34,492 bases of DNA from a virus: positions 1 through 34,492 of the IMG/VR virus record IMGVR_UViG_3300037139_000203. One strand, 5' to 3'. Shown here piece after piece: positions 5,780-34,083 of this stretch. Position 1 is the stretch's first letter. Each line of letters begins with the position of its first letter. The position numbers and the translations under genes were made by a program. A model generated the notes under the pieces. The model was given only the letters and a program-made list of their open reading frames with translations. It did no database searches and was not told the origin of the DNA.

Positions 5780-6016
5780 ATGAAAATCGGCGTCCTGCAC
5801 GGGCAACTGGACAAGTGGCAATCCGGCATCGCGTGGGGACGAATACCGGCGTGGCAAGGTAGCGACGGTTTGTTCATCCACCTTTGGTGCATGAAACTGC
5901 GTTCGCTTCCCCAGCGAGCCGAAATGATATCGAAGCAGAACTACACCGGCGTCAGATTCTTCAAAGCGTTCTATCCGCAAACAATGTTCACCCGCACTAA
6001 ATCCAACGTACGCTAA
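5780..6016 (+). CDS. Small hypothetical protein upstream of portal
   Basis: 78 residues beginning immediately after the previous stop codon and overlapping the portal start by one base (TAATG). The product is basic and aromatic (W13, W19, W25, W36), with a basic C-terminus. No family is recognised. Tight coupling on both sides supports it as a real gene of the packaging and head operon. Confidence 0.5.
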   Translation: MKIGVLHGQLDKWQSGIAWGRIPAWQGSDGLFIHLWCMKLRSLPQRAEMISKQNYTGVRFFKAFYPQTMFTRTKSNVR

Positions 6017-8379
6017 TGCCAACCCCTTCCCTCGACGCAAGCAATAAGCCATCGTGGCGCGCACGCCTCACGCGCGGCATTGCGGCGGCAATCCATCCCG
6101 AAACCTATGAGCAGGAGCAGGGCATGTACATGACGCGCTACGGCATCATAAAGCGCGTCGTCGGCAAATCGGGCGTATCGCAATTCGGCGAGATCAACAG
6201 CGGCAACCAGTTCGTCATCGAGCGGCCAGGCGCAGGCATACCGGTTGACCCGTCGCGCGCGCTTGCGGCATTCAAAGGCTTCGTGTACGCATCCGTGAAC
6301 GCCAAGGCGCGCGAAGTGATGACGATTGACTGGCGGATGTTCGCGGTTGACGGCGATGAAACGGAGGAAGTGAAAGACCACGACCTCCTCAGCCTGCTCG
6401 ACAGCCCGAACGACAACATGAACGGGCTTGAGCTGAAGTACCTCACGTCGGCATTGCTCGACCTTACGGGCAACACGTATTGGTGGCTTGAGGGCGTGAA
6501 GAACGATACCGACCAGCCGACCGCCATCCACCTGATGTCGTCCGACCGCGTGCGCCCCGTCATCGACCGGCGCTCATGGCCGTACCAGCTCGTCGGCTAC
6601 AAGATGAAGCTTCCGAACGTGGAGGTTACGTTCAAGTCGTACGAAATCGTCCACTTCCGCTCACCGAATCCTAGCGAGTTTTTCGAAGGCTACAGCCCGG
6701 TCATGGCCGCCGCCGCGTTCATCGACAACGACGACGATGCGACGAAGTTCAACAGCAAGTTCTTCAGGAACGGAGCGCGGCCGGTTGGGTTCCTCGAAAG
6801 CGAGTTCGTTGCGGAAACACAGCTCGATGCCTTGAAGACCGGATTTGAGGACATGCACGGCGGCATTGACAATATGCAACGCATCGGCGTACTGCCGAAG
6901 GGCGTGAAGTGGGTTCCGAGCGGCTCAACGCCGAAGGATATGGACTTCAAGAGCATGTCTGTCGAAATGCGCGACCGCATCCTTTCGATGTTCGGCGTGA
7001 GCAAAACGATTTTGGGAACCGCGGAATCAGATACCAATCGTGCGACCGCTGAAACAGCGGACTATGTCTTCTCGAAGCGCGTCGTCAAGCCGCACATGAT
7101 CGCCATTTGCGGAACGCTCAACGACCGGCTTGTCGGACGGTACGGCGACAACGTTTACATCAGCTTCATTGATCCCGTGCCGGAGGACAAAGCCGCACGT
7201 AACACCGAGATGCAAACGGTCGTCGGCAGTATGCCCGTGCTTACGGTGAACGAAGCGCGCGACGAGTTCATGGGTTTGGGACCGGTGGATGGCGGCGACG
7301 TTTTGATGAAGCCGACGATGATGGGTCCGGCGACTGAATCGCCCACTGATGCCGCGCCAGCGAAGCCGGATGCAGGATCACCACAGCCGCAGGACGATCC
7401 GAATTCGAAGCGCGTGAGCAAGCTCATGGCAGGCAATCGCACGAAGGCGGCGAATGGCGTTCGCGTCGGCTACCGGCCGTCACGCACGAAGTTCCAGAGC
7501 TTGACCGCGAAGCGCACGACGCAAGCGAAGTCGTTGGCCGATAAAATCGTCGCCGACCTCAAAGCGAAGCTCAGCGTCAAGACCAAAGCGTTTGCATCCA
7601 CGAAGGAGCAGGACGAAGCCGCGTACAGCCAGGCCGCAGAATACACGCACGCCGCAGAGAGCGACCTCACGGCGACGATGCGGAAGATGAACGCCGAACA
7701 GCAAAAGGAAGTGATGGCGAACCTGCCGACTGCAATAGAGAAAGGAATTGATCCGACCAAGCTATTCGACCTCGACAACTGGATTTCGATAACGACGAGC
7801 GCCGTCCTTCCGCTTATGGAAACGCTTTCGGCGCGCCAGGCCGCTGAAGCGTTGGCCGCGATCGGCGATGTTGACAGCACGCCGTACAGCGACACGCTCA
7901 AGGCATCCGTGCATGAATCGGTGCAGATGATGGCCGAAAGCTATCAGCAGACGACCTTGAACGCGCTGGAGAGCAAGATCAACGACGGCTTGCAGGCGGG
8001 CGAATCGCTTGCCGACATCACAAAGCGCGTAGAGGAAATTTACGAATGGAGCAACGACAGCCGCGCGGCGATGGTGGCAAAAACCGAATCGTTCCGCACG
8101 ACGAACGACGCGCTGAAGACGGCGTGGAAGCAGTCCGGCGTCGTGAAAACGGTGCGATGGTTCACGAGCGAGCTCGATAATGTATGCCCGTTCTGCCTCG
8201 ACATGAATGGCAAGACCGTGGGCATTGATGATGTATTTTTCAAAAACGGCGATTCGATAACGGCCACGGACACCGAGGGCACGGCCAAGACGATGTCGCT
8301 CGATTACGGCGACGTTGGCGCGCCTCCCCTTCATTGTAATTGTTGTTGTTTTATAAGGCCGTCCAGCGTTGAAATCTAA
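6016..8379 (+). CDS. Portal protein fused to a MuF-like minor head domain
   Basis: 787 residues, nearly twice an ordinary HK97-type portal. Residues about 80-430 match the portal pattern: ASVNAKAREV, DSPNDNMNG, LTGNTYWWL, the clip/stem region IHLMSSDRVRP, and 'G.SP...A' then KFFRNGARP. A Pro/Ala/Asp-rich linker follows at about 440-475. The last 100 residues are MuF-like: a helical stretch with TESFR, then CPFC with D and GK (about 735), and a closing PPLH-CNC. The portal forms the ring through which DNA enters; MuF proteins are minor head proteins ejected with or bound to DNA. The canonical end PPLHPNCRC is changed to PPLHCNCCC, right beside an HNH gene. Confidence 0.88.
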   Translation: MPTPSLDASNKPSWRARLTRGIAAAIHPETYEQEQGMYMTRYGIIKRVVGKSGVSQFGEINSGNQFVIERPGAGIPVDPSRALAAFKGFVYASVNAKAREVMTIDWRMFAVDGDETEEVKDHDLLSLLDSPNDNMNGLELKYLTSALLDLTGNTYWWLEGVKNDTDQPTAIHLMSSDRVRPVIDRRSWPYQLVGYKMKLPNVEVTFKSYEIVHFRSPNPSEFFEGYSPVMAAAAFIDNDDDATKFNSKFFRNGARPVGFLESEFVAETQLDALKTGFEDMHGGIDNMQRIGVLPKGVKWVPSGSTPKDMDFKSMSVEMRDRILSMFGVSKTILGTAESDTNRATAETADYVFSKRVVKPHMIAICGTLNDRLVGRYGDNVYISFIDPVPEDKAARNTEMQTVVGSMPVLTVNEARDEFMGLGPVDGGDVLMKPTMMGPATESPTDAAPAKPDAGSPQPQDDPNSKRVSKLMAGNRTKAANGVRVGYRPSRTKFQSLTAKRTTQAKSLADKIVADLKAKLSVKTKAFASTKEQDEAAYSQAAEYTHAAESDLTATMRKMNAEQQKEVMANLPTAIEKGIDPTKLFDLDNWISITTSAVLPLMETLSARQAAEALAAIGDVDSTPYSDTLKASVHESVQMMAESYQQTTLNALESKINDGLQAGESLADITKRVEEIYEWSNDSRAAMVAKTESFRTTNDALKTAWKQSGVVKTVRWFTSELDNVCPFCLDMNGKTVGIDDVFFKNGDSITATDTEGTAKTMSLDYGDVGAPPLHCNCCCFIRPSSVEI

Positions 8380-8385
8380 CCGTCC

Positions 8386-9036
8386 ATGCAAGACTTTATC
8401 CGAATCGAATATCCATGGCGTGGGCGCATCATAAAGCAGAAGCGCGTTCACGTTCCCTGTGCCCAATGTGGCGCTGACTTATTGCGAAGCGTGACCCGTG
8501 CCAAACGAACCTGCTTCTGCAACAACGCACATATGCTGCGCTTCAAATATGACAACGGGCTGTTTGATCCGCAACACATAATCAAGAAAGCGCATGAGGC
8601 GATGGCTAAACGGAATTGGAATCGAGGCGGAACCAACCTTGCGGTCCGCGGCGCAAATAATCCGGCGAAACGCCCGGAATCGCGTGCAAAAATCAGGGCG
8701 GCAAAGCTCGAACGCAACTGGATGCGTGGTAGAACCGGCGCGTTGCATCATAACTATCTAGGCGGCAAGATTTGGTGGCGCGGAGCCAACTGGGATGCCA
8801 TAAAACTTCGTGTCAAACAGCGAGACGCTTTTATGTGCGCTCAATGCGACATGACCGAGTGGCAGAACTACGAAAAGTTTGGGATGCCGCTTTCCGTTGA
8901 CCATATCGTCATGTATCGCATCTCTCACGACAATGCGATGCAGAACCTCCAGACGCTCTGCTCGATCTGCCACGCCAAAAAGATTCCTGAAGAAAAATCG
9001 CTCGTCTTAGCGGTGCAACAAATTCTAGCCGCCTAA
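8386..9036 (+). CDS. HNH endonuclease, probably a free-standing homing nuclease
   Basis: 216 residues. The N-terminal part has a Cys cluster (CAQC at 25-28, then CFC and a His) that may bind zinc. The C-terminal part is a clear HNH domain: CAQC, then LSVDHI, then NLQTLCSICHAKK, with paired CxxC zinc ligands around the DH catalytic motif. The middle region (NNPAKRPESRAKIRAAK) resembles a NUMOD3-type DNA-binding repeat. Such genes move by cutting an uninterrupted allele and being copied in. It starts six bases after the portal-MuF stop and is followed four bases later by a structural gene, as expected for a later insertion. No Shine-Dalgarno sequence. Confidence 0.85.
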   Translation: MQDFIRIEYPWRGRIIKQKRVHVPCAQCGADLLRSVTRAKRTCFCNNAHMLRFKYDNGLFDPQHIIKKAHEAMAKRNWNRGGTNLAVRGANNPAKRPESRAKIRAAKLERNWMRGRTGALHHNYLGGKIWWRGANWDAIKLRVKQRDAFMCAQCDMTEWQNYEKFGMPLSVDHIVMYRISHDNAMQNLQTLCSICHAKKIPEEKSLVLAVQQILAA

Positions 9037-9040
9037 ATCA

Positions 9041-9598
9041 ATGCTTGATCCCGTCGCCAACCTAATCAACTTGACCCTTAGCACTGGCTACGGCTCGACC
9101 GACACGTCCATCGTGCTTGCTTCCGGTGGCTCAAGCTTGCCGTCGCCTAGCTTTAATTGTGTTTGGTGGAACAGCACTGATTACCCCGATCCGTCCAAAG
9201 ACCCGAACGTCGAGATCGTGCGTGTGACGAACGTCAGCGGCAACACGCTTACGGTGACGCGTGCGCAGGAAGGCACGAGCGCATCCACAAAGAACACCGC
9301 AGGCAAAACCTACAGCCTCATCCTTGCGCTCACCGCGAAGATGATTACGGACATCGGCAACAATCTTCAGAAGCCGTGGCGCTTGGTGACGGTAAACGGC
9401 ACGATCAACGGCAGTAATACCGTTTTTACGCTCAATGGCTCCATCGCGCCATTTGATTCCAACTCGCTCCAGCTCTCGCTTGCACGTCAGCCGCAGATTC
9501 AGGGGATTGACTACACGTTCTCCGGCGTTACGATTACTTACATCACACCACCCGACGGCAGTCTCAACGGCGAGCCGCACGTCGGGCAATATCAATAA
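9041..9598 (+). CDS. Virion surface or tail-associated beta-rich protein
   Basis: 185 residues, beta-rich, rich in S, T, N and G, with no signal peptide. Residues about 60-85 (EIVRVTNVSGNTLTVTRAQE) form a small beta-motif often seen in phage fibre and decoration proteins ('E.v.Vt..sgntlTvtRg..GT'). A second beta-region follows with a hairpin-like TVNGTINGSNTVFTL. Function is not proven; likely a fibre or head-surface component. It opens the 8-kb block of surface-type proteins between the portal and the protease. Confidence 0.55.
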   Translation: MLDPVANLINLTLSTGYGSTDTSIVLASGGSSLPSPSFNCVWWNSTDYPDPSKDPNVEIVRVTNVSGNTLTVTRAQEGTSASTKNTAGKTYSLILALTAKMITDIGNNLQKPWRLVTVNGTINGSNTVFTLNGSIAPFDSNSLQLSLARQPQIQGIDYTFSGVTITYITPPDGSLNGEPHVGQYQ

Positions 9599-9616: not shown

Positions 9617-12600
9617 ATGAAACAAGTTCTTTGGTTCCTAGGTTCTGCCTTCGCCCTCGCAATCGTCGGCCAAATTCTCACGGTAAACGCCGCGCCGTAT
9701 CCCGCAGCATTGGGCGGCACCGGCACGAGCCAGATTCCCGCATCCGGCACGATTCCGATCGGCAACGGCGCAGGGAGTTACACGCCGGCATTCTTGACGC
9801 CAGGCTCGAACGTGACCATCACGAACGGCTCAGGCACCGTCACGATTTCAGCGACAGCCGGTTCCGCTTCTGGCACCGTGTTTCTCATTACGGCAGGCCA
9901 CGGCATCTCGCTCTCACCGGCTTCGATCACGGCTTCCGGCACAATCGCCGTGAACACTTCCACCATCATCCAAGACGTTGTTGCGTCCGGCCAATTATTG
10001 CCGTCAAGCACGACGTACGTGGCGAGCGTGAACGGACAATCTGGAGCTGTGACGTTCGGCATACCCGCGACGACGACCGTGAACGGCACTCAGGCGACCA
10101 TCTTCAAGCTCATCGGCGACGGGACGACCGTCACCTCGACGGTGAACGGAAGCACCACCATATTTTCAATCATCACGACGGGCAACTGGTCAGGCACCTG
10201 GCAGAACGCAACATCAGGTACCTATTACCAGTCCAGCAACCCAAGCGGCTTTATTTCCGGCAACCAGACGATCACGTTCAAGGCAACGGGCGACGCGACC
10301 GGAACCGCGACCGGCGCGACTTCGATCACGGACAGCTTGACCATAACCGGCCTTCAGGGAAAAGCCCTCCCGTCGCTTGCGACCGGCACGCTCACCTATA
10401 CGGGCGGGGCATGGACGTTCAACAACAATACGTACCTGCTCTCCGGCGTGAACGTCACGACGACCGCGCCGCTTTCTGGTGGTGGCGCACTCACGACCGC
10501 TGGGCTCACGCTCACCTGCGCGACGTGCCTTACCGCGAACCAGACGATAACGCTCACGGGCGCGGTCACCGGATCGGGCGCGACCTCGATTGCAACGACC
10601 TACACGACCAGCACGCTGTACGGCTTTTTCTCAGCAACGGGTCCGATCGTGTACAACTCATCCACGGGCGCGTTTAGCTGGACGAATTCGAACAATTATA
10701 TTTCGACGATTTCAATCAACGGCAATTCCGGCACGAGCTTTCAAGTTCTTGCAGGCTCAGGCGTGACCTCGACCGTAGCGGGAACGAACACAACGCTTTC
10801 GCTGAACTTGAGCGGCGGTTGCAATGGCTCGCAATTCGTTTCAAACATCACGCCGTCCGGCGTTATCTCTTGTGCCACGCCATCGGGCGGCGCAAGCTCG
10901 ACAAACGTGTACGGCATCGAACCGATTTTAGTGGCTCAAACTGGCGTGAATGCCACGACGAGCTACGACACGACCTATCCCATGTCGCTCAGCGCACTCT
11001 ATACGTTCCTCAAAGGCGCGACCATTGACGGAACGACGACGCTCGCTTCAACGACGAACGCGATCCTGCTCACGAACGGAAGCGGAACCGTGGCGGCCTA
11101 TGCTGGCACGACCTGTCCAGGCGGCGAATCTCCGAACGCCTTCTCCGCGACCGGCACGTTCACCGGCTGCCTCACGTTCCTCACCGGCAACCAAAGCATC
11201 ACGCTCACGGGAGCCGTGACGGGCAACGGCGCGACGACCATCGCTACTGCCTTCACGACCTCGACGCTCTATGCGCTTTTCTCGGCATCAGGGCCAGGAC
11301 TCTCGTATAGCAGTGCCACCGGCCAGTTCACGTATTCATCGTCATCGCTCAATCTTGGTTCGGCGGCGTATCATCCGGCGAGCGACTTCCTCGCATCGAG
11401 TACGAACCTTGCGCCAAGCACAACGATTCCGACCGCTTACGTTTCGACTTTCAATGGTGCGACTGGAACGGTAACCGGCGTCAGCTCTTTAGCGAACAAC
11501 GCGGCGGCGGGCGGAATCAACTTCTCGGCGGCAACCGGATCGGCAATCACGGCCGTTCTCAATTCACTGGCGCTTTCGCAGTTCACCGGCAATATCGTGA
11601 ATACGTTTAACGGTGCAACGGGGACGATAACCTACGCACCATCGACAACCATTCCGACGGTCTATGTGACGAGCTTCAATGGTTCGAGCGGCGTAGTGAC
11701 CTATGCGCCTTCGACAACCATCCCGACCGTTTACGTGGTAAACAATCTCGGCAACTGGGCTGGAACGTGGCAGGGCGTGAACAGCTCGACATTTTATCTC
11801 GCATCGAATCCATCAAGCTACATCACGACCACAACCTATCAGTCCCTGAACGGTTGGAGTGGATTGTCATGGAACGTCCTCGGATCGGGCAACGTGACAT
11901 CGAGCGTGACGAACGGCAGCACGACATTTTCACTCACGGGCGTCATACCCGCATCGAACGGCGGCACGGCGACGACGACCGCGCTCGGTTCTAACGCGTT
12001 CACATCAACGGCTATCCCGACCGTCTTTGTTTCCTCGTTCAACACTCGCACAGGCGCGGTGACGCTTTCAAACGGCGATGTCCTGACCGCCCTCGGATAT
12101 ACGCCTATCAATGCTTCAACCTCAGCGACATCAACGTGGCTTTTGACCTCGAACGGCACGAACTGGATTGCGAGCGCGCCGCCTCAGGGAGTCACCTCCT
12201 CGACCATCTGGGGACTGTTCTCAAATTCAGCGACGGGACTGACCTACACCAACACCACGGGCGCGACCGCTTTGACCTCCGGCTACTTCATTCCCCTCAC
12301 CGCAAGCGGGACGCAATGGAACGCGGCATACGCTTCATCGTCGCTCATAACGTCGGCTTTGGGGACGAACGCGTTTAATTCCACGGCGTTCATCACTACT
12401 TCCACCTACAACGGAAACTTCGGTACGGCTGCCAGTCATCCTGCTACCGACTTCATCGCTTCAAGCACGAACATGGTGAATACGCTGAATGGTGCGACGG
12501 GAACGGTGACTATTTCATCTTCATCTCTCGGCGTGATCTATAACCCTTCGTGGATCACGACCTCGACCTACAACGCTTCAATGACGATAGCGACGGCCGG

Positions 12601-13528
12601 CCCGCTTGGCGGCGGCGGTTCGCTCACGAATGGCAGTACGATTTCCCTTACGTGTGCGACCTGCATCGCGGCGAACACCGGCAACTGGGCGGGGACATGG
12701 CAAGGGGTTAATTCTTCGACCTTCTATCTCGCCACGAATCCATCGTCTTACGTCACGGCATCTGTTGTGAACGGCTATGCAACATCATCAGCGGGTGGCG
12801 CAGGTTCCTACACAAACGCGAACATCACGGTGAACGCGAACGGCATCGTGACGGCGGCGGCGAACGGCTCTGGCGGTTCAGGTTCGGGCGTTGCCTCAAC
12901 AACGCCGTACACCGCAGGCTATATCCCTGTGGCAAGCACCTCGCTCGCGCTCACAAACTCGCCAATCTTCGAACAGGCCAGCACGACGAATCTCGGCATC
13001 GGCACATCAACCCCAGCGCATACGCTTGTCGTCACGAACGCTTCGGGAACCTCGCAGATGAGCATTGACACTTCAACGTCAACGCCGAATTACTATCTGC
13101 AAATTCAGAACTCATCCACGGCGAATGTCTTTAGCGTTGCTTCAACGAGCCAAGCAATCCTCAACGGCCAACTCTCTGAGCCAGTCTATGACAATGGCAC
13201 TTCGACCGCAGGTTCAGCCACGATCAATTGGAACAACAGCAACAAGCAGCAGATCGCGCTTGCGACGACAACGACCGCGCTCTCATTCTCGAACGTGCAA
13301 TCAGGCGGTTCGTACACGCTCTGGGTTGAGCAGGACACGACCGGCTCACGAACCGTGACATGGCCATCATCCGGCCCAGGCGAAGTGCAGTGGGCAAGCT
13401 CAACGGTTCCGACGCTCACAACGACCGCGAACAACATGGACGTATTCAGCTTCCAATGCTTCGCGCCGCACACGACAACGACGATTACCTGCTTCGGGCA
13501 ATATGGAAATGGGAACTTTGTCCAATAG
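9617..13528 (+). CDS. Giant Ser/Thr/Gly-rich repetitive fibre or adhesin with Sec signal peptide
   Basis: 1303 residues from ATG 9617; the TTG three bases earlier is not preferred. The N-terminus is a Sec signal: MKQ, a hydrophobic core of about 20 residues, and cleavage site VNA-AP. The rest is beta-repeat material almost without K or C. It contains 'FNGATGTVT'-type units known from phage tail fibres, GAVTGSGATSIATT units, three GNW-GTW units and, near the C-terminus, LGIGTSTPAHTL followed by a beta-domain ending in CFGQYGNGNF. Phage fibres normally lack signal peptides, so this could be a fibre carrying an odd hydrophobic anchor or a protein exported by the infected cell. The other-frame open stretches here are composition shadows. 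Confidence 0.75.
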   Translation: MKQVLWFLGSAFALAIVGQILTVNAAPYPAALGGTGTSQIPASGTIPIGNGAGSYTPAFLTPGSNVTITNGSGTVTISATAGSASGTVFLITAGHGISLSPASITASGTIAVNTSTIIQDVVASGQLLPSSTTYVASVNGQSGAVTFGIPATTTVNGTQATIFKLIGDGTTVTSTVNGSTTIFSIITTGNWSGTWQNATSGTYYQSSNPSGFISGNQTITFKATGDATGTATGATSITDSLTITGLQGKALPSLATGTLTYTGGAWTFNNNTYLLSGVNVTTTAPLSGGGALTTAGLTLTCATCLTANQTITLTGAVTGSGATSIATTYTTSTLYGFFSATGPIVYNSSTGAFSWTNSNNYISTISINGNSGTSFQVLAGSGVTSTVAGTNTTLSLNLSGGCNGSQFVSNITPSGVISCATPSGGASSTNVYGIEPILVAQTGVNATTSYDTTYPMSLSALYTFLKGATIDGTTTLASTTNAILLTNGSGTVAAYAGTTCPGGESPNAFSATGTFTGCLTFLTGNQSITLTGAVTGNGATTIATAFTTSTLYALFSASGPGLSYSSATGQFTYSSSSLNLGSAAYHPASDFLASSTNLAPSTTIPTAYVSTFNGATGTVTGVSSLANNAAAGGINFSAATGSAITAVLNSLALSQFTGNIVNTFNGATGTITYAPSTTIPTVYVTSFNGSSGVVTYAPSTTIPTVYVVNNLGNWAGTWQGVNSSTFYLASNPSSYITTTTYQSLNGWSGLSWNVLGSGNVTSSVTNGSTTFSLTGVIPASNGGTATTTALGSNAFTSTAIPTVFVSSFNTRTGAVTLSNGDVLTALGYTPINASTSATSTWLLTSNGTNWIASAPPQGVTSSTIWGLFSNSATGLTYTNTTGATALTSGYFIPLTASGTQWNAAYASSSLITSALGTNAFNSTAFITTSTYNGNFGTAASHPATDFIASSTNMVNTLNGATGTVTISSSSLGVIYNPSWITTSTYNASMTIATAGPLGGGGSLTNGSTISLTCATCIAANTGNWAGTWQGVNSSTFYLATNPSSYVTASVVNGYATSSAGGAGSYTNANITVNANGIVTAAANGSGGSGSGVASTTPYTAGYIPVASTSLALTNSPIFEQASTTNLGIGTSTPAHTLVVTNASGTSQMSIDTSTSTPNYYLQIQNSSTANVFSVASTSQAILNGQLSEPVYDNGTSTAGSATINWNNSNKQQIALATTTTALSFSNVQSGGSYTLWVEQDTTGSRTVTWPSSGPGEVQWASSTVPTLTTTANNMDVFSFQCFAPHTTTTITCFGQYGNGNFVQ
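10185..12753 (+). repeat. Degenerate coding repeats in the giant fibre gene
   Basis: A unit reading GNW-(S/A)-GTWQ, then a Tyr, then SNPS-(G/S)-(F/Y) occurs at about 10188-10260, 11747-11823 and 12677-12753. The latter two are nearly identical as protein but differ at many synonymous positions. FNGATGTVT-like and YAPSTTIPTVYV-like units alternate between them. The pattern suggests old duplications kept by protein-level selection, not recent DNA copying. Confidence 0.65.
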
Positions 13529-13529
13529 C

Positions 13530-14636
13530 ATGAAAAAGTATCTCCTCATCGTCCCGTTGCTTTTATGCTTCGCCGGAAAAGCAAACGCCTTCACGCTTGT
13601 GCAAGTCAAAGGTGCGGCTTCCACGACACTTGCCGTATCATCCACTGCCGCAGGAGATGCGATGCTTTGTGCGCTCAACGGAGAGGCAAACACTAACTTC
13701 ACTATCACGAGCATTTCAGATAACCAAGGGACACAATACACTACCGGAACGTATTATCTTTCCTCTAATAATGCTCCAATCACTCAGATGTTTTATGGAC
13801 TTAACGTCGCCTCAGGGATTACTTCCATTACTGTATCCAAAACTGGCACTTTTAATTTTCCCAGTCTTATTTGTCAGGAGGTATCGGGGATCGCCACGTC
13901 AAGTGCGCTCGACGTGCAATCAACGGGAGCGAACTCGACGGGTTTGACGGTTTCCGTGACGACCGCTATGACGACAAATGCCAATGATTATTTGTTTGGT
14001 TCCGCGGTTACTGCTGCTAATGGTCAAACATGGACAGGACTTTCTGGTTTCATCGTTGAAACAAGCACTGCGTCCATTATACTTTCTCCCGTCACCGTCC
14101 ATGCGGCAACTTCGACTATCTCAACAGTCTCTAATTTAGCTTCATATACGGGAACAAACAGCCTTTGGGCAGCGGCGTTCGGGGCTTTTAAGGCGACTGG
14201 TGTTACCCCCACCTGCACCCCCACCTCCATCACCCTCGACACCTCGACCTATTCGACCACCATCGGAACGCCCGTGTCCGTCACCGTCACGCCCGTCTCG
14301 ACTTCAACGGGCGCGATGTGTACCTCGACGCTCGAAAGCAATTACTCCGGCTCATATTTGATCATCCCCACGACGGGAACGAAGATTGATTGTCAGGGAG
14401 CGACCTGCGCGGCTTCAGCGACCTCAACAGCTTCAACCTACTCCATTGGGTGCGATGCGACAGGGACGTACAATCTCATGGGCTTTCTCACGAGTGGTTC
14501 TACCTCGACCGTGGCGAACTCGGCAACGTCAACCCTTACCTGTTCCGCCGCGTCGACGGCGAATTCCATAACAACCTTCCTCGACCAAGCGGCCGCCCTC
14601 ATCATTAGAGGCGCGTCATTCATCATCCATGGCTAA
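13530..14636 (+). CDS. Exported beta-rich surface protein
   Basis: 368 residues from ATG 13530, one base after the giant fibre stop; the start at 13503 would bury the signal peptide. The N-terminus MKKYLLIVPLLLCFAGKANA is a clear Sec signal with an AxA site before FTL. Residues about 25-225 follow a surface-protein domain pattern: 'AGD.ML', 'ITSISDNQG..Y', 'M.YGLNVASG.TSITV', 'QEVSG', 'TNANDYLFG' and 'WAAAFGAFKA'. I recognise it as a recurring beta-sandwich module without an assigned function. A second beta-domain with four Cys follows, probably disulfide-bonded after export. The last 20 residues are hydrophobic and basic and could be membrane-active. Confidence 0.65.
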   Translation: MKKYLLIVPLLLCFAGKANAFTLVQVKGAASTTLAVSSTAAGDAMLCALNGEANTNFTITSISDNQGTQYTTGTYYLSSNNAPITQMFYGLNVASGITSITVSKTGTFNFPSLICQEVSGIATSSALDVQSTGANSTGLTVSVTTAMTTNANDYLFGSAVTAANGQTWTGLSGFIVETSTASIILSPVTVHAATSTISTVSNLASYTGTNSLWAAAFGAFKATGVTPTCTPTSITLDTSTYSTTIGTPVSVTVTPVSTSTGAMCTSTLESNYSGSYLIIPTTGTKIDCQGATCAASATSTASTYSIGCDATGTYNLMGFLTSGSTSTVANSATSTLTCSAASTANSITTFLDQAAALIIRGASFIIHG

Positions 14637-15783
14637 AAAGGACCTCATCATCCTCGCGCTCGGCTTTCTCTTCCTTCTCCCGAAGCATAGTTTTGCCTCA
14701 TATACGTACTATCGAAGCATTACCGTGACGAGTACGACATCAATCGCTTCCGGCACAAATAGCAATTTCCCGATGCTTGTTTCCTCAACGTTAGGCACGT
14801 TTGCATCAGTGGGGTGGGGCGGCCATGTCCAGAATCTTACGACCGCGCCAAGTGGCGGACAGGAACCGGCAGACTTGGTATTCGCCACGTCATCGGCGAA
14901 CTGCGGGACGGCGAACCTCAACTTTGAAACGGAAAGCTATACCTCTTCCACGGGAGCATTGGTTGACTGGGTGAATGTGCCAAGTGAATCAGCCGGAAGC
15001 GTTATCTATGCCTGCTATGGCAACAGTGCGGTTACGGCCGACCAATCACATCCCAGCTCGACGTGGAACAGTAATTACGTTAATGTAACTCATTTCCCCA
15101 ACGGAACGAGTTTAAGTCTAAATGACTCAACTTCTAATGGTGATAATTGGGTGAACTATAATGCTAATTCAATTCCAACTGCTGTTACTGGACAAGTTGA
15201 CGGGGGTGCGGGATTTCCTTTTGTCTCTGGATCTGGTAATCCACAACTAAATGATGCCAATAACTATGGATACAATGTCATAGGTATAGAAATATGGGTA
15301 AAGATTTTATCTTCGGGGAGTACAGATACTACCATAATAACTGACCCTGGTCCGTATTATGCACTCCGTATAAATAGTTCTAACCAAGTCTATGGGATTT
15401 TTTATAGTGGTGGTACTCAAACTACGGGAAATACTTCTGCTTTATCCGCGGGTTGGCATCAAATCGTTTATACGATAGATGGAAGTAATGGTAAAATCTA
15501 TGTTGATGGCTCTTTTGCTACTTCGGCAGCTGGTGGAACGATTGGACCACCAAATAGTCAAAATCAAATTAACCAATATGGATTCGCCGGTTATGCTGTT
15601 CTTAATTTGGATGAAGTTAGAATATCTAAATCACCAGCGATGCTTTCCGCCAACTGGATTCTCACCGAATACAATAACCAGAACTCACCGAGCACGTTCT
15701 ATTCGATGGGAAGCGAGCAAGGCGGAGGCGGAGGCGGGATCGTAAAGCGGCTTCTCGATATGTTGTTTTTTTCTTCCGACTAA
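14629..15783 (+). CDS. DUF2341-LamG surface protein with signal peptide
   Basis: 384 residues, overlapping the previous gene by eight bases. Signal peptide: MAKKDLIILALGFLFLLPKHSFA before SYT. Residues about 25-145 match DUF2341: YYRSITV, the 'NFPMLV' strand, ETESYTSSTGALVDWV and the IYACYGN motif. Residues about 160-360 form a concanavalin/laminin-G fold ending in the typical DEVRISKSPAMLSANWI and TEYNNQNSPSTFYSMG. LamG folds often bind glycans or surface proteins. A hexaglycine linker and a short hydrophobic C-terminus (IVKRLLDMLFF) follow. The central third (about 15060-15640) is noticeably AT-richer than its neighbours, suggesting a separately acquired domain. Confidence 0.8.
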   Translation: MAKKDLIILALGFLFLLPKHSFASYTYYRSITVTSTTSIASGTNSNFPMLVSSTLGTFASVGWGGHVQNLTTAPSGGQEPADLVFATSSANCGTANLNFETESYTSSTGALVDWVNVPSESAGSVIYACYGNSAVTADQSHPSSTWNSNYVNVTHFPNGTSLSLNDSTSNGDNWVNYNANSIPTAVTGQVDGGAGFPFVSGSGNPQLNDANNYGYNVIGIEIWVKILSSGSTDTTIITDPGPYYALRINSSNQVYGIFYSGGTQTTGNTSALSAGWHQIVYTIDGSNGKIYVDGSFATSAAGGTIGPPNSQNQINQYGFAGYAVLNLDEVRISKSPAMLSANWILTEYNNQNSPSTFYSMGSEQGGGGGGIVKRLLDMLFFSSD

Positions 15784-15809
15784 AGGTCATAAACCAACCA
15801 ACAACCACC

Positions 15810-16028
15810 ATGCCAACATTCATCAAAAATAACGACGGTTCGTACAGTGAGCAGACGCTCGCGCCATTCGACCCCGTAGCAACGGCGGCTCAAATCGTTA
15901 CCTTGCAAGCACAGTCGGTAGCCGCAGTACAGCTCGCAAGCGACAACGTGAGCGCATCGTTTACAGAGCAGATAGCCGCGCTTCAGGCGTTGCTCGACGC
16001 GTTCAACGCACAATTCCCGCAGTCGTAA
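15810..16028 (+). CDS. Small helical protein, unknown
   Basis: 72 residues beginning MPTFIKNNDGSYSEQ, followed by an Ala/Gln-rich amphipathic helix spanning about residues 22-68. It probably oligomerises as a coiled coil. It has no signal peptide or known family. The start follows a CAACAACCACC leader without a ribosome binding site. Confidence 0.55.
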   Translation: MPTFIKNNDGSYSEQTLAPFDPVATAAQIVTLQAQSVAAVQLASDNVSASFTEQIAALQALLDAFNAQFPQS

Positions 16029-16048
16029 AACACAGCAATCTAACACGA

Positions 16049-16246
16049 ATGTACGCATTTCATGGCTACGGAACAAATGAATATGCCTCACGACGCCCGC
16101 TTGTGAGCAATATTGTCGGCCCCATCGTGAAATTGGCGATGCGGGTTCTCTTGTCCACCTATGGCGTGGCGAATGGCCTGATGCTACGATTCAGGAACAC
16201 CACGCTCAGCAATCCTCAAAGCAACAATACAACGCTCGAACTATGA
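16049..16246 (+). CDS. Small hypothetical protein
   Basis: 65 residues with a hydrophobic middle (IVGPIVKLAMRVLLSTYGVANGLML) that could be one membrane or buried helix. The stop overlaps the start of the next gene (ATGA), which supports translation coupling. No family is recognised. It is kept mainly because it fills the gap and has a coupled end. Confidence 0.35.
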   Translation: MYAFHGYGTNEYASRRPLVSNIVGPIVKLAMRVLLSTYGVANGLMLRFRNTTLSNPQSNNTTLEL

Positions 16247-16584
16247 TCCAGCCCATCCAAATTGTGCAGAACGATTACGGCTACCAGCTCCCCTTCACGC
16301 TCGAAGACGGCAACGGCAACGCCGTCAATCTCTCTGGCGCTTCGCTTACGCTTTCGGTGCAGTCCGCGCAAGACCCGACGCAGACGCTCCTCACCCTCAC
16401 CGGCGGAATGTCAATAGACAGCGCATCGGCCGGAACGTGCCACTACACCGCCGCCGCAGGCGACTTCCCGAATCCCGGTACGTTCCTTGCATCCATCACG
16501 GCCGTGTGGAGCGGGACCGAAAGCCTCACGTGGTCCGGCATCCAGATCATTGTCATTCCCGCCCTGCCGCAAGCAATAAATTAA
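16243..16584 (+). CDS. BppU N-terminal-like Ig-fold virion protein
   Basis: 113 residues with the pattern of phage baseplate BppU-type N-terminal (DUF2479-like) beta-sandwich domains: an initial strand (IQIVQNDYGYQLPFTL), EDGNGNAVNLSGASLTL, a variable middle, a Gly/Tyr turn (GTCHYTAAAGDFPNPGTF) and a last strand ending in 'I.IIVIP'. Such domains attach receptor-binding proteins to the virion. It has no signal peptide, unlike several neighbours. The family call is made by pattern only. Confidence 0.55.
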   Translation: MIQPIQIVQNDYGYQLPFTLEDGNGNAVNLSGASLTLSVQSAQDPTQTLLTLTGGMSIDSASAGTCHYTAAAGDFPNPGTFLASITAVWSGTESLTWSGIQIIVIPALPQAIN

Positions 16585-16595
16585 CGACCGCGCCC

Positions 16596-16769
16596 GTGAT
16601 CGCTGAACAGAAATCAAAATCTTACGTATCGGTTCGATGCGTCGGTTGCCGCATGAAGCTGAAGCGTCGCCGCGGCGTCACGAATCCGACGTGCTTCGAT
16701 TGCAAGAAGAAGCGGGCGAAGGCGCGAAGTTATGCACATATTCAAAATCCAACTGCCGCTCTAGGATGA
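16596..16769 (+). CDS. Tiny zinc-finger protein
   Basis: 57 residues from a GTG start; the frame is open further upstream but would overlap the previous gene. It contains CVGC (about residues 16-19) and CFDC (about residues 33-36) separated by a basic loop KLKRRRG, then a basic tail (KKKRAKARS). This is a typical small treble-clef or zinc-ribbon layout that could bind nucleic acid. Function unknown. The start codon is uncertain because no ribosome binding site is present. Confidence 0.45.
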   Translation: MIAEQKSKSYVSVRCVGCRMKLKRRRGVTNPTCFDCKKKRAKARSYAHIQNPTAALG

Positions 16770-16773
16770 AGGC

Positions 16774-17319
16774 ATGAACAAATACATCGCATGGGGATTG
16801 GTAGCGTTGGTTGCAGTGGTGGGCGTCGGTTTCTTGTTTGCAAATAAACCACAACAGACCGGCCAAGACTTTCCAGGCGGCATCACGCCGACGAACGTCA
16901 TGACGGCGAGCGCGGGAGGTGGCCTTACCGGCAACGGCTATGTGGCTCCGGTGGGATCGCTTGCGGTCAATGCGCAGAACGGCCTTTCGGTCGGCGGCTC
17001 TGACCAGTATCATGGCCTGAGCGGATACGTAACCGCATCCGGCACCCCGTCCGCCGCCGTGACGCTCGGTGCGTTTGGCAACACGACTTCATCCGCGACG
17101 ACCACGGTGACGTTGCCTGAATCGGCAGGCCTCTCCATTGGCGCGATCTGTTCCGGCAGCACGGCAACGACAACGGTCTACGTTTCGGGATGCGTCCTCA
17201 CCTCGACGAACGGCGTGACAGGAACGGCAATGGTAGCCTACTCGAACCTAACGGGCGCGACCCTCGCCGTCCCAACCTCGACGGTTTTGCGAATCTCGTT
17301 CGACCAGCTCCCTTATTAA
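16774..17319 (+). CDS. Membrane-anchored or exported Thr/Ser/Gly-rich protein
   Basis: 181 residues. The N-terminus MNKYIAWGLVALVAVVGVGFLF is one hydrophobic segment without a clear AxA site, so it is probably a signal anchor. A Gly-rich linker and a compact beta-domain with two Cys (CSG..., CVL) follow, ending in VLRISFDQLPY. No family is recognised. It is the fourth protein with an export or anchor signal in the 9.6-17.3 kb block. The next gene's GTG follows its stop directly. Confidence 0.6.
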   Translation: MNKYIAWGLVALVAVVGVGFLFANKPQQTGQDFPGGITPTNVMTASAGGGLTGNGYVAPVGSLAVNAQNGLSVGGSDQYHGLSGYVTASGTPSAAVTLGAFGNTTSSATTTVTLPESAGLSIGAICSGSTATTTVYVSGCVLTSTNGVTGTAMVAYSNLTGATLAVPTSTVLRISFDQLPY

Positions 17320-18882
17320 GTGGCAACCAACAAGCAGGCGATGAATGAAGCACTAAAACAATTCTCTGCCGACCTTGGGAAAGAACTCCAAAAGAAACTC
17401 GAAACGTCTGAAGTAAAGGAGTTCATCTCGAAGGTCAAGGCGTCCGGCGATGACCGGACGTTTGAGGTTGTGATGAGCACATCCGATGAGGATCGCCAGG
17501 GCGATTCGCTCGACCAGTCCACGTGGGACTTTAAATACTTTGACATGAACCCCGTGGTGCTGTTCGCGCACGATTATTCGAGCTTTCCGATTGGCATCAT
17601 TACCGACATTGAGATCAAGGGCAACGAAGCGGTTGCAACGGGCAAGTTCGCGCCGGAAGGCATCAATCCCGCCGCCGACATGGCGTGCGCTTTGTACCAA
17701 CAGAAAATCCTTCGCGCCGTCTCCCCTGGCTACATCCAGAATGACGATGGCAGCCGTGAATTGCTTGAAGTGAGCTTCTGTCCCGTTCCGGCCGGACGTT
17801 ATGCGCTTTCCATGCGGCAGGTGCGTGCGCTTGGCGTTTCGACGCGGGAACTCGTGACCAAGGGGTTTTTCTATAACGAAAAGAAAGCGGAACAGGCCGG
17901 CGACCCGTGCGAGCTGGAAGACGGCTCGCCAGGCGTCCTAGCCGACAGCGGCGGTGATGGCAAGCTGGTGTGCGTTCCGACCGAAGACAAATCACAAAAA
18001 TCAACCGAAACACAAATGAACGAAATGGAGAAACAACTGAAAGCGGAACACGAGCGGCATGGCACGGAAGTCGCCAAGGCCATTGACGAGTTTTCCGAAA
18101 AGTGCATGAAGTGCGAGAAGGCCGGCGACAAGTCGGAGTTCGAAAAAGCGATTGACGAATACACGAAGGCGATGGACGGCGAACAGGCCGACCACCTCAC
18201 GAAGTGCATGAAAGCCATTGACGACAGCTACGACACGATGGGCCGCGAGCCGAACAAGCCGGAGAAAGCGCACAAGAAAGACATCGAGGAATTCAAGTCT
18301 GAGATGACCGGCGAGCATTTGACGCATGTCAAGGCTTGCGACAAGGCGATTGACGAGTTTACGAAGGATTGGCAGGACGGCGATCCGAAAGAAGACAAGA
18401 AGAAAGCCATTGACGAGTTTACGAAGTCCATGGGCGATGAGCTTGACCGCCACGAGAAATCCCATATGGAGATGGTGAAAGCCGAAGCTGACCGCATGGG
18501 CGCGGATGAAGACGAAAAGAAAGCCGCTGCTGAAGTTGAGCAGAAATCAGGACGTGCCATTTCAGCGGTGAACGGAGAAAAGATCAAAGCGGTCATAAAA
18601 GCGCTTGAAGAGCATCACGAAGCGCATGGAGTTGCTACTCAGAACGTAATCGCCAGCCTCAAAGAGCTTTCGAGCTCTCCACAGGATGACGAGGGGGAGG
18701 AACAGAAGCCTGAGAAAAAGGCTGCTGCCCTGAAACCAAGGTCGAGCACCTCGGGAGCAAACGCTGAAATGGAGACTTACATCTTCACCCAGCGGCTCGT
18801 GAGGCAGGTCAAAACTGCCAGTGAAGGTGCTCTTCGCCAGATCAACGAAAAGATCAAGGAGACGCGCTCTTCCGGCAGATAG
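17320..18882 (+). CDS. Prohead protease (HK97 U35-like) fused to a scaffold domain
   Basis: 520 residues; GTG at 17320 is used, with ATG 17341 as an alternative. Residues about 45-165 are the protease: F.VVMSTSDEDRQGD, then NPVVLFAHDY with catalytic His84, an IG/ATGKFAP strand, AVSPGYI with likely nucleophile Ser135, and LLEVSFCPVPA. A Cys pair (197, 218) follows. Residues 230-400 are highly charged and helical with five KAID(E/D) repeats and look like the scaffold (delta) domain that shapes the prohead before being degraded. The C-terminal 90 residues are again helical. Protease-scaffold fusions are known in other phages, but the repeats are unusual. Confidence 0.88.
   Translation: MATNKQAMNEALKQFSADLGKELQKKLETSEVKEFISKVKASGDDRTFEVVMSTSDEDRQGDSLDQSTWDFKYFDMNPVVLFAHDYSSFPIGIITDIEIKGNEAVATGKFAPEGINPAADMACALYQQKILRAVSPGYIQNDDGSRELLEVSFCPVPAGRYALSMRQVRALGVSTRELVTKGFFYNEKKAEQAGDPCELEDGSPGVLADSGGDGKLVCVPTEDKSQKSTETQMNEMEKQLKAEHERHGTEVAKAIDEFSEKCMKCEKAGDKSEFEKAIDEYTKAMDGEQADHLTKCMKAIDDSYDTMGREPNKPEKAHKKDIEEFKSEMTGEHLTHVKACDKAIDEFTKDWQDGDPKEDKKKAIDEFTKSMGDELDRHEKSHMEMVKAEADRMGADEDEKKAAAEVEQKSGRAISAVNGEKIKAVIKALEEHHEAHGVATQNVIASLKELSSSPQDDEGEEQKPEKKAAALKPRSSTSGANAEMETYIFTQRLVRQVKTASEGALRQINEKIKETRSSGR
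18076..18432 (+). repeat. KAIDEF repeats in the scaffold domain
   Basis: Five copies of KAID(E/D)(F/Y/S) at residues 253, 276, 298, 342 and 362. Spacings are 20-23 residues, with one of 44, so one copy may have been lost. Each unit includes a following basic/acidic helix with H, C or K. Codons vary between copies, so the repeats are old. Confidence 0.7.
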
Positions 18883-31609: not shown

Positions 31610-31670
31610 AGCCCCACTCCCCTCTTATAGCCGGAAAATCGAGACATCTTGAAGAGGGGAGCGGGCTTTT
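31610..31670 (+). terminator. Intrinsic terminator with overlapping hairpin
   Basis: CTCCCCTCTT (31617-31626) is a perfect complement of AAGAGGGGAG (31652-31661). The outer AGCCC (31610-31614) pairs with GGGCT (31663-31667), followed by TTT. The loop is long (25 bases). A second hairpin, GCGGGCT (31661-31667) with AGCCCGC (31677-31683), overlaps the 3' side and could compete. It separates the tail genes from the peptidase gene. The rest of the 31562-31728 gap has no gene; a short CGAG/CTCG stem with a U-run (31587-31609) is a weaker possible terminator. Confidence 0.6.
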
Positions 31671-31728
31671 GTACACAGCCCGCACTCGACAAATCCCGCG
31701 CACCGCGCATAATTCAAACAACGCTCAC

Positions 31729-32679
31729 ATGGAATTTATCCACCCCCATAATGCAGGCAAAATACTCGGCGTCATCCGCGACTATTCAGCCGACTTGCAC
31801 CCGATTGACCTCGTTCGTTCCGCAACACCGCCGCAACGACCGGCGCAGTATCTCATAGACCAGAACGGCGCGTTCTTTAAGCTCATCGCGCTTATGCAAG
31901 GGTACTGCCCTAGCTGCGGCGGATATTCTCTCGCCCAGCTCGTTAACCTCCTTGGCGTACTGAACAAAGCCAAGGCATCCGCCCAGCTCTCCGGCAGTTT
32001 CGATTACGCGTTTGAAAAAACGGTTGACGGCGTTCCGAACCAGGAAGGCACGTTCATCTCAGCTCTCGGCAAGGCGGGCAGTCTTGTAGGCTCATGTCTC
32101 GATTCCCTTTTTCCCGACGACGGCACACTTAGCACGGACCCGCAGCATGTTATAACAACGCCGTACTCATCCGCGAACGCGCAGGCAGTCGCGGATGCGG
32201 CGACGCGGGTGCTTGGCACACCGTTCTTGCTCACCGATCTTTCGATGGGCGGCATTCACCAGGCGTGCTTCGAATACGGCGCGGTGATCCTCGAAGTGCA
32301 GGTTGGCGCTGAATGGTACACCGCACGCGATGGCGCTGAATCGTGGGAAGCCGAGGACGTACTCCCCATCCGTCCGCCGAAGAAAGTTATTGATTCCCAT
32401 TTCATCATGGTGAGCGCGTACGACGAAACGGTTGACAAGACCTTCTTCTGCAATTCGTGGTCGCCGACATGGGGACAGAACGGCTTTGGCTGGCTGAATT
32501 CGAACTACGCGCCCTACATCGTATCCGGCATCGCATTCAAGCAGGTTCCCGCCTCTGTTACGCAAGTCCTGAACAGCCCAACCATCGAGACGCCCCAGAA
32601 GCAGGCGATCATTCAGGCGATTCTTCAGGACATTGACCAAGCGCTCGGACTCGTCAGCAAAGAGCTCGGGCAACTATAA
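31729..32679 (+). CDS. Papain-like (C1A) cysteine peptidase, candidate lysis enzyme
   Basis: 316 residues from ATG 31729; upstream in-frame codons overlap the terminator. The C1A signature is clear: QGYCPSCGGYS (57-67) with oxyanion Gln57, Cys60 and nucleophile Cys63; SHFIMVSAYD with His224; CNSWSPTWGQNGFGW with Asn242 and Trp244. Spacing fits papain. There is no signal peptide, so it is cytoplasmic or needs a holin. It sits between two membrane-protein genes, the usual position of an endolysin, which is otherwise missing. It may cleave peptide cross-links or a surface protein, or act on host or virion proteins. The C1A fold is well supported; the role is inference. Confidence 0.85.
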   Translation: MEFIHPHNAGKILGVIRDYSADLHPIDLVRSATPPQRPAQYLIDQNGAFFKLIALMQGYCPSCGGYSLAQLVNLLGVLNKAKASAQLSGSFDYAFEKTVDGVPNQEGTFISALGKAGSLVGSCLDSLFPDDGTLSTDPQHVITTPYSSANAQAVADAATRVLGTPFLLTDLSMGGIHQACFEYGAVILEVQVGAEWYTARDGAESWEAEDVLPIRPPKKVIDSHFIMVSAYDETVDKTFFCNSWSPTWGQNGFGWLNSNYAPYIVSGIAFKQVPASVTQVLNSPTIETPQKQAIIQAILQDIDQALGLVSKELGQL

Positions 32680-33360: not shown

Positions 33361-34083
33361 ATGGAGAACGCAACGCTTATGGCGCACCGCGACACTCGTA
33401 AAATCGGCTACGAAGAACTGGCCCTGGTACCGACGCCGCTTGGCACCGATACCCACCGTCCCGTTCCGCACCACGAGGTCGTGAACGCGCTCATCGAAAC
33501 GCTTGGCTTCCGGCACATCGCCGTCCACCGCTCGGAATTCGCCGTCTCAGATGACGGCAACAAGATGTTCGGCCTGCTCGAACTCGAAGAAGGGTTCCAA
33601 GGCTGCCGCTTCGCGCTCGGCTTACGCAACAGCCACGACAAGTCCATGCGCCTCGCCATGACCGTCGGTTATCGCGTGTTCGTATGTGACAACATGGCAT
33701 TCCACGGCGACTTTACGCCCGTGCTCGCCAAGCACTCAAAGCACTTCAACATCCTCAATGCCCTTTCCGTGGGCGTTGATATGATGCAAAGGAGTTTTGA
33801 ACCGATGGTCCAGGCCGTTGATCGTTGGAGAGAATCACAACTCACCGACGTTTCGGCGAAGCTCCTGATCTATCAGGCGTTCATCGAAGCCGATCTGGAC
33901 GTTCCCCGTCACCTGGCGCGGAATGTCCACGACCTGTATTTCAATCCGCAGATCGAGGAGTTCCAGCCTCGCACCGTGTGGTCACTCTCGAACGCTTTTA
34001 CGAGTGCCTTCAAGGCTCTTGATCCGATTCCTCAATTCAAGGCTACGGCGAAACTCGCCGGATTCTTGGAAGGCCGTATGTAA
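33361..34083 (+). CDS. DUF932 phage/plasmid-like protein
   Basis: 240 residues preceded by AAGGAG (33348-33353) at normal spacing. The family pattern is present: an N-terminal HHEVVNALIE helix, FRHIAVHRSEFAVSDDGNKMFG, the core 'GLRNSHDKSMRLAMTVGYRVFVCDN' region with the conserved Cys-Asp-Asn, then a helical C-terminal half. DUF932 proteins are widespread in phages and plasmids; some are linked to DNA metabolism or anti-defence, but no activity is established. Its leader is structured and its translation signal differs from the virion genes, so it probably belongs to another expression group, perhaps early genes. Confidence 0.85.
   Translation: MENATLMAHRDTRKIGYEELALVPTPLGTDTHRPVPHHEVVNALIETLGFRHIAVHRSEFAVSDDGNKMFGLLELEEGFQGCRFALGLRNSHDKSMRLAMTVGYRVFVCDNMAFHGDFTPVLAKHSKHFNILNALSVGVDMMQRSFEPMVQAVDRWRESQLTDVSAKLLIYQAFIEADLDVPRHLARNVHDLYFNPQIEEFQPRTVWSLSNAFTSAFKALDPIPQFKATAKLAGFLEGRM

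Follow-up and report, generated by a model that had tools for sequence, protein, structure and literature searches.

In the present study, we compared the genes lying between the portal and prohead protease genes in a group of related uncultured phages, and show by this sequence comparison that in all cases examined the gene for a conserved protein (FibN) is directly followed by that for Rep, a protein with a fibre-like shaft and tip, a predicted cleavable Sec signal and paired cysteines. We propose that the locus encodes a split fibre, in which FibN is the cytoplasmic base and Rep is an exported, disulfide-bonded shaft that would join the virions at lysis. This is the explanation that we prefer, and it is held tentatively, at somewhat less than an even chance.

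The window, that is the whole stretch of DNA that was analysed, is a 34.5-kb viral record with the usual order of terminase, portal, protease, HK97 capsid and tape measure, and its phage is an HK97-type siphophage. An integrase was not seen in the window, which is a fragment. The block and its borders are as follows:

6016..8379, + strand: portal protein with C-terminal MuF-like part, left border (phrog_2662 portal, E=1.7e-109; in 29/31 related records)
8386..9036, + strand: HNH-type gene (similar ORF in L048 and L060; absent from most other relatives)
9041..9598, + strand: FibN, putative cytoplasmic fibre base or adaptor, 185 aa, no signal peptide (alignment, PHROG tail-fibre matches, model)
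9617..13528, + strand: Rep, exported repetitive fibre-like protein, 1303 aa (predicted signal peptide cut after VNA)
13530..14636, + strand: cassette protein 1, exported, beta-rich, 8 mature Cys (predicted signal peptide cut after ANA; relatives at 30-34% identity in L050 and L058)
14629..15783, + strand: cassette protein 2, exported, LamG domain, 2 mature Cys (PF13385, E=1.7e-11; signal peptide by sequence)
15810..16028, + strand: small cytoplasmic protein, 72 aa (weak PHROG match)
16049..16246, + strand: MYGFSGYGTN-type small cytoplasmic protein (most relatives have a homologue in the same position)
16243..16584, + strand: 113-aa cytoplasmic protein, kept in the block (phrog_1084, E=0.001; homologues in nearly all relatives)
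16774..17319, + strand: TM181, N-terminal membrane anchor and beta-rich ectodomain with one Cys pair (alignment, Cys parity, model)
17320..18882, + strand: prohead protease with scaffold-like C-terminal part, right border (weak TIGR01543 match, E=0.0093; in 28/31 records)

The start of Rep was taken at 9617, against one codon earlier (TTG) by the ORF caller, and that of cassette protein 1 at 13530 (MKKYLL), against 13503. The first-pass annotation had described four genes between the portal/HNH genes and the protease (repetitive, beta-rich, LamG and signal-anchored), and all of them were found there. The block is larger than it had reported, starting with FibN at 9041 and including the small cytoplasmic genes. 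The second cassette protein, which had been named a DUF2341-LamG protein, has the LamG domain listed above, and DUF2341 was not recovered by Pfam at E<=0.1. At window positions 15001-16000, which cover most of the LamG cassette, the GC content is 0.45 against about 0.55 around it, as expected if the segment were recently acquired. Further downstream, 31669-32679 may encode a papain-like cysteine peptidase (weak match to 3ois, E=0.011; no Pfam match); it lies at the expected endolysin position and has matches in several relatives. A DUF932 gene (PF06067) at 33361-34083, near the end of the late region, is kept in most of the relatives examined in full.

The terminase scan gave 42 related viral loci at 46-90% identity, and relatives at 74-80% identity are in Acidobacteriota MAGs; the viral contigs and the MAG binning are fragmentary. 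One of the MAG relatives (G032) is a full prophage on a 232-kb contig, with the block inside. It lies beside tRNA-Met and an integrase, and a 23-bp repeat of the 3' end of that tRNA flanks it at 116013 and 168104; therefore, the phage group is temperate. Acidobacteriota are presumably diderm. Patescibacteria, first taken as the host from the style of the repeats, were ruled out by these close relatives; Patescibacteria MAGs held distant relatives only, and no such portal-protease block was seen there. These distant relatives (L093 in a Kaiserbacteria MAG, L097 in a Peribacteria MAG, and L099-L101) have a similar head and tail gene order, which suggests a phage lineage across two phyla. The portal is at most about 30% identical to those of known phages, and the known phages searched gave no relative of TM181 or of the LamG protein. 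In several relatives the large terminase reaches about 800 aa through an insert with intein domains (PF14890, Hint), as in L004:10001-12445, L025:4053-6437, L027 and the G032 prophage. The portal gene of G003 (L046) is interrupted near query residues 343-350 by an open reading frame of about 1 kb, possibly another intein.

Portal-to-protease intervals were read in 30 records and one prophage. The block proved to be kept, in the same order, in most of the relatives: FibN, Rep, zero to several exported cassette proteins, the MYGFSGYGTN-type protein, the 113-aa protein and TM181. Four genomes (G009, G020, G023 and G030) lack most of the block between portal and protease. Of these, G020 retains TM181 in the interval and encodes an exported Rep-like protein in its tail module instead, without FibN. 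Exported proteins are found at the portal-protease spot in more distant relatives (terminase 46-50%) also. In the closest annotated named phages (GBK2, phiKM1, 1N2-2 and mu1/6), portal and protease are adjacent or have one or two genes between them, none of them fibre-like. The earlier expectation that head modules rarely hold fibres at this place does not apply to this group, which does carry a fibre-like gene there and, in one relative, a spike-like protein.

FibN is well conserved (64% mean identity in a 19-sequence alignment), has no signal, and most members contain one cysteine or none. In its predicted model (pLDDT 82.7), the N part resembles the phage GP4 tail fibre 8jov (Z 11.2 over 103 residues) and the C part resembles the attachment N-domain of T7 gp17, 7boz (Z 8.0 over 69 residues). 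Hence, the predicted fold of FibN is that of the virion-attachment domain of tail fibres. Where sequence downstream of FibN was available, the Rep module follows directly in 30/30 distinct cases, with a 4-base overlap in 11; 28 were matched automatically, and the remaining two (L013 and L025) are Rep genes with a GTG start. A frameshift joining FibN and Rep into a single protein was ruled out, as each Rep has its own start and signal at a spacing of -32 to +173. A fusion of the two in L059 was also ruled out; there the FibN N part is joined to a different, long spike-like body (pectate-lyase-like by eye), and an exported Rep is present as well.

The Rep proteins of the relatives are 369-1540 aa long, with about 80 N-terminal residues kept and a variable part beyond, and they have fibre-like repeats. 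The C-terminal 70 aa of the window Rep match the tail fibre end of Synechococcus phage S-SM2 at 40%. The alignments show that Rep and the neighbouring cassette proteins vary by module exchange, with the surrounding head genes constant. Between G006 and G021, the Rep body is 42% identical over 31%, against 91-97% for head genes (portal, FibN and capsid 94-96%); between L069 and L071, the portal is 98% identical and the cassette 32%.

Export of these proteins was examined in two ways. Signal peptides, called by our own heuristic n-h-c rule, were predicted for 21/45 genes of the portal-protease interval in 11 related phages, against 15/475 elsewhere (p=7e-16). Thus the hydrophobic or signal N-termini that had been noticed in the four proteins are not a matter of chance. 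The AxA sites noticed with them are present in the sequence as VNA|APYP, ANA|FTLV and SFA|SYTY. By the same heuristic, the signal peptides of Rep and the cassettes have an n-h-c layout with an AxA-type site, mostly without Cys, and a lipobox with Cys at the cleavage site was not found in them. In the Rep alignment, the signal peptides are divergent and end at a conserved junction, AAPYP-x-x-x-GGTGT, and all the Rep proteins found keep a hydrophobic N-terminus, the loss of which in homologues the first-pass annotation had named as grounds against its reading.

The second way, cysteine parity, makes no use of the N-terminus: proteins that are disulfide-bonded outside the cytoplasm tend towards an even number of cysteines (PMC7678975). 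Mature Rep has an even number in 22/22 complete distinct proteins with a predicted signal, and in 25/25 when the window Rep (10) and two Reps with non-ATG starts (10 and 6) are added. The cysteines stand in local pairs, a median of 17 residues apart within pairs and 98 between them. Even numbers were also found in 13/14 cassette proteins that contain cysteine and in 32/32 distinct TM181 ectodomains, in some of which the partner cysteine is at the C-terminus instead; non-exported proteins gave 115 even and 165 odd counts. These counts are not fully independent, coming from related sequences, yet parity is kept over cysteine numbers from 2 to 30. In L048, L061 and L074 a cysteine lies within the signal peptide; the full count is odd there and becomes even once the signal peptide is left out, in agreement with its cleavage. 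Host genomes encode a homologue of the disulfide-forming VKOR. Sec export of Rep and the cassette proteins is therefore well supported and very probable, because the n/h/c layout is conserved, the mature cysteines are even and locally paired, and the host has VKOR.

The hydrophobic N-termini could instead be virion features, such as membrane-inserting segments of fibres or of ejected proteins. We regard this as very unlikely. The genes do lie in a late structural operon and TM181 has no consistent cleavage site; however, the conserved Rep junction comes just after an AxA-type site, the even and locally paired cysteines have no counterpart in the non-exported proteins, and variable binding proteins of phages studied elsewhere are without signal peptides (PMC6199706). 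The related suggestion, fibres anchored by hydrophobic segments, could hold for TM181; it does not suit Rep, in which the conserved AxA-type junction and the cysteine pattern indicate cleavage and oxidation.

Since no consistent cleavage site follows the hydrophobic N-terminus of TM181, an uncleaved anchor is more likely. Its beta domain was modelled with pLDDT mostly 77-91, and the fold search gave no confident match. TM181 and Rep often co-occur; an obligate partnership was ruled out, TM181 being absent in G013 and G017 and present in G022 without a Rep module found, and no co-evolution being seen. TM181 as a host gene was ruled out too: a strong match was found in 1/396 Acidobacteriota genomes, inside a prophage, and one other genome gave weak matches in long ORFs only.

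The block proteins could be adhesins that an infected or lysogenic cell displays or secretes and that bind other cells, particles or glycans; display at the cell surface is what the first-pass annotation had suggested. Its Sec export part stands on the signal peptides, paired cysteines and VKOR, and host-cell display is at most possible and, in our judgement, unlikely. Signal peptides and disulfides would suit adhesins, as would the temperate lifestyle and the domains found among the cassettes (LamG, SPRY and glycine-rich). Against this, the block is located inside the late head operon and shares its strand. No promoter or terminator signals above chance were found in the block region; therefore, expression with the late genes is favoured, and the block is probably silent in the lysogen. 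No signal for outer-membrane export or anchoring was seen either.

Rather improbable, though a stronger candidate than adhesion, is receptor masking. Here Rep and the cassette proteins would be exported, fibre-derived binders that cover the phage receptor or glycans of the envelope while infection proceeds. By analogy with T5 Llp and the mEp structural-cluster lipoproteins, they would prevent superinfection and keep progeny from re-adsorbing to cell debris. The export evidence from signal peptides and cysteines is in line with masking, and the variation resembles that of receptor-binding proteins. T5 Llp blocks FhuA (PMC9586334), and exclusion lipoprotein genes of tested activity lie in the structural gene cluster (PMC11893012). 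L059, with both a spike and an exported Rep, also fits masking better. However, the precedent exclusion proteins are small lipoproteins, whereas the present ones are of 250-1540 aa without a lipobox, and masking leaves the strict coupling of Rep to FibN unexplained.

In the split fibre that we prefer, Rep and the cassette proteins would leave through Sec late in infection, and would fold and become disulfide-bonded in the periplasm, perhaps held by membrane-anchored TM181. Once lysis has released the virions, mature Rep would dock on their FibN by its conserved N-terminal module, and the outcome would be a rugged, exchangeable fibre. The docking is the uncertain part of the proposal, and one that we infer, because within the main clade the Rep N-terminal module showed no sign of co-evolving with FibN or TM181. 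The accepted view is that tailed phages put their virions together entirely in the cytoplasm; Rep and FibN would therefore come into contact only once the cell has lysed, and we know of no precedent in tailed phages for fibre parts that do so. The one-piece FibN spike beside an exported Rep in L059 and the Rep-like protein without FibN in G020 also count against the split fibre, and the fibre reading alone leaves the cassette proteins and TM181 unexplained. In searches of the open-access literature we found no exported fibre described for a tailed phage, and a study of cultured Acidobacteriota phages (PMC11924767) is without virion proteomics.

Fibres of viruses are not normally exported and locked by disulfides. 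An exported Rep beside a virion fibre base would either break the rule of cytoplasm-only assembly or represent a new class of phage proteins, large and exported, in the Acidobacteriota, abundant soil bacteria that have been little studied. The former, in which part of a tailed-phage virion is built outside the cytoplasm from a Sec-exported shaft and tip with periplasmic disulfides, FibN attachment at lysis and exchangeable tips, is a possibility that we consider doubtful. The cysteine-parity test is cheap and can be applied to all phage genomes.

Among known systems, the locus resembles T7 gp17-type and GP4-type fibres in the predicted fold of FibN, in the fibre-like repeats of Rep and in the C-terminal piece that it has in common with the S-SM2 fibre. 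It differs from them in that base and shaft are separate genes between portal and protease, and in that the Rep shaft has a Sec signal and paired cysteines. The exclusion lipoproteins (T5 Llp, Cor and mEp Lpp) are likewise phage-encoded and exported, some from within the structural gene cluster, but they are small and have a lipobox, whereas Rep and the cassettes are large, hypervariable and fibre-like and lack it. PblA and PblB of streptococcal phage SM1 are reportedly structural-type phage proteins for which an action on the surface of the host cell has been proposed; they are likened here by description, and unlike Rep they are said to be without signal peptides. CwpV of Clostridioides difficile, which blocks siphophage infection (PMC4737114), is also a large exported repetitive protein with variable C-terminal repeats. 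CwpV, however, is host-encoded, phase-variable and anchored in the cell wall, and the likeness is one of description, with no sequence relation claimed.
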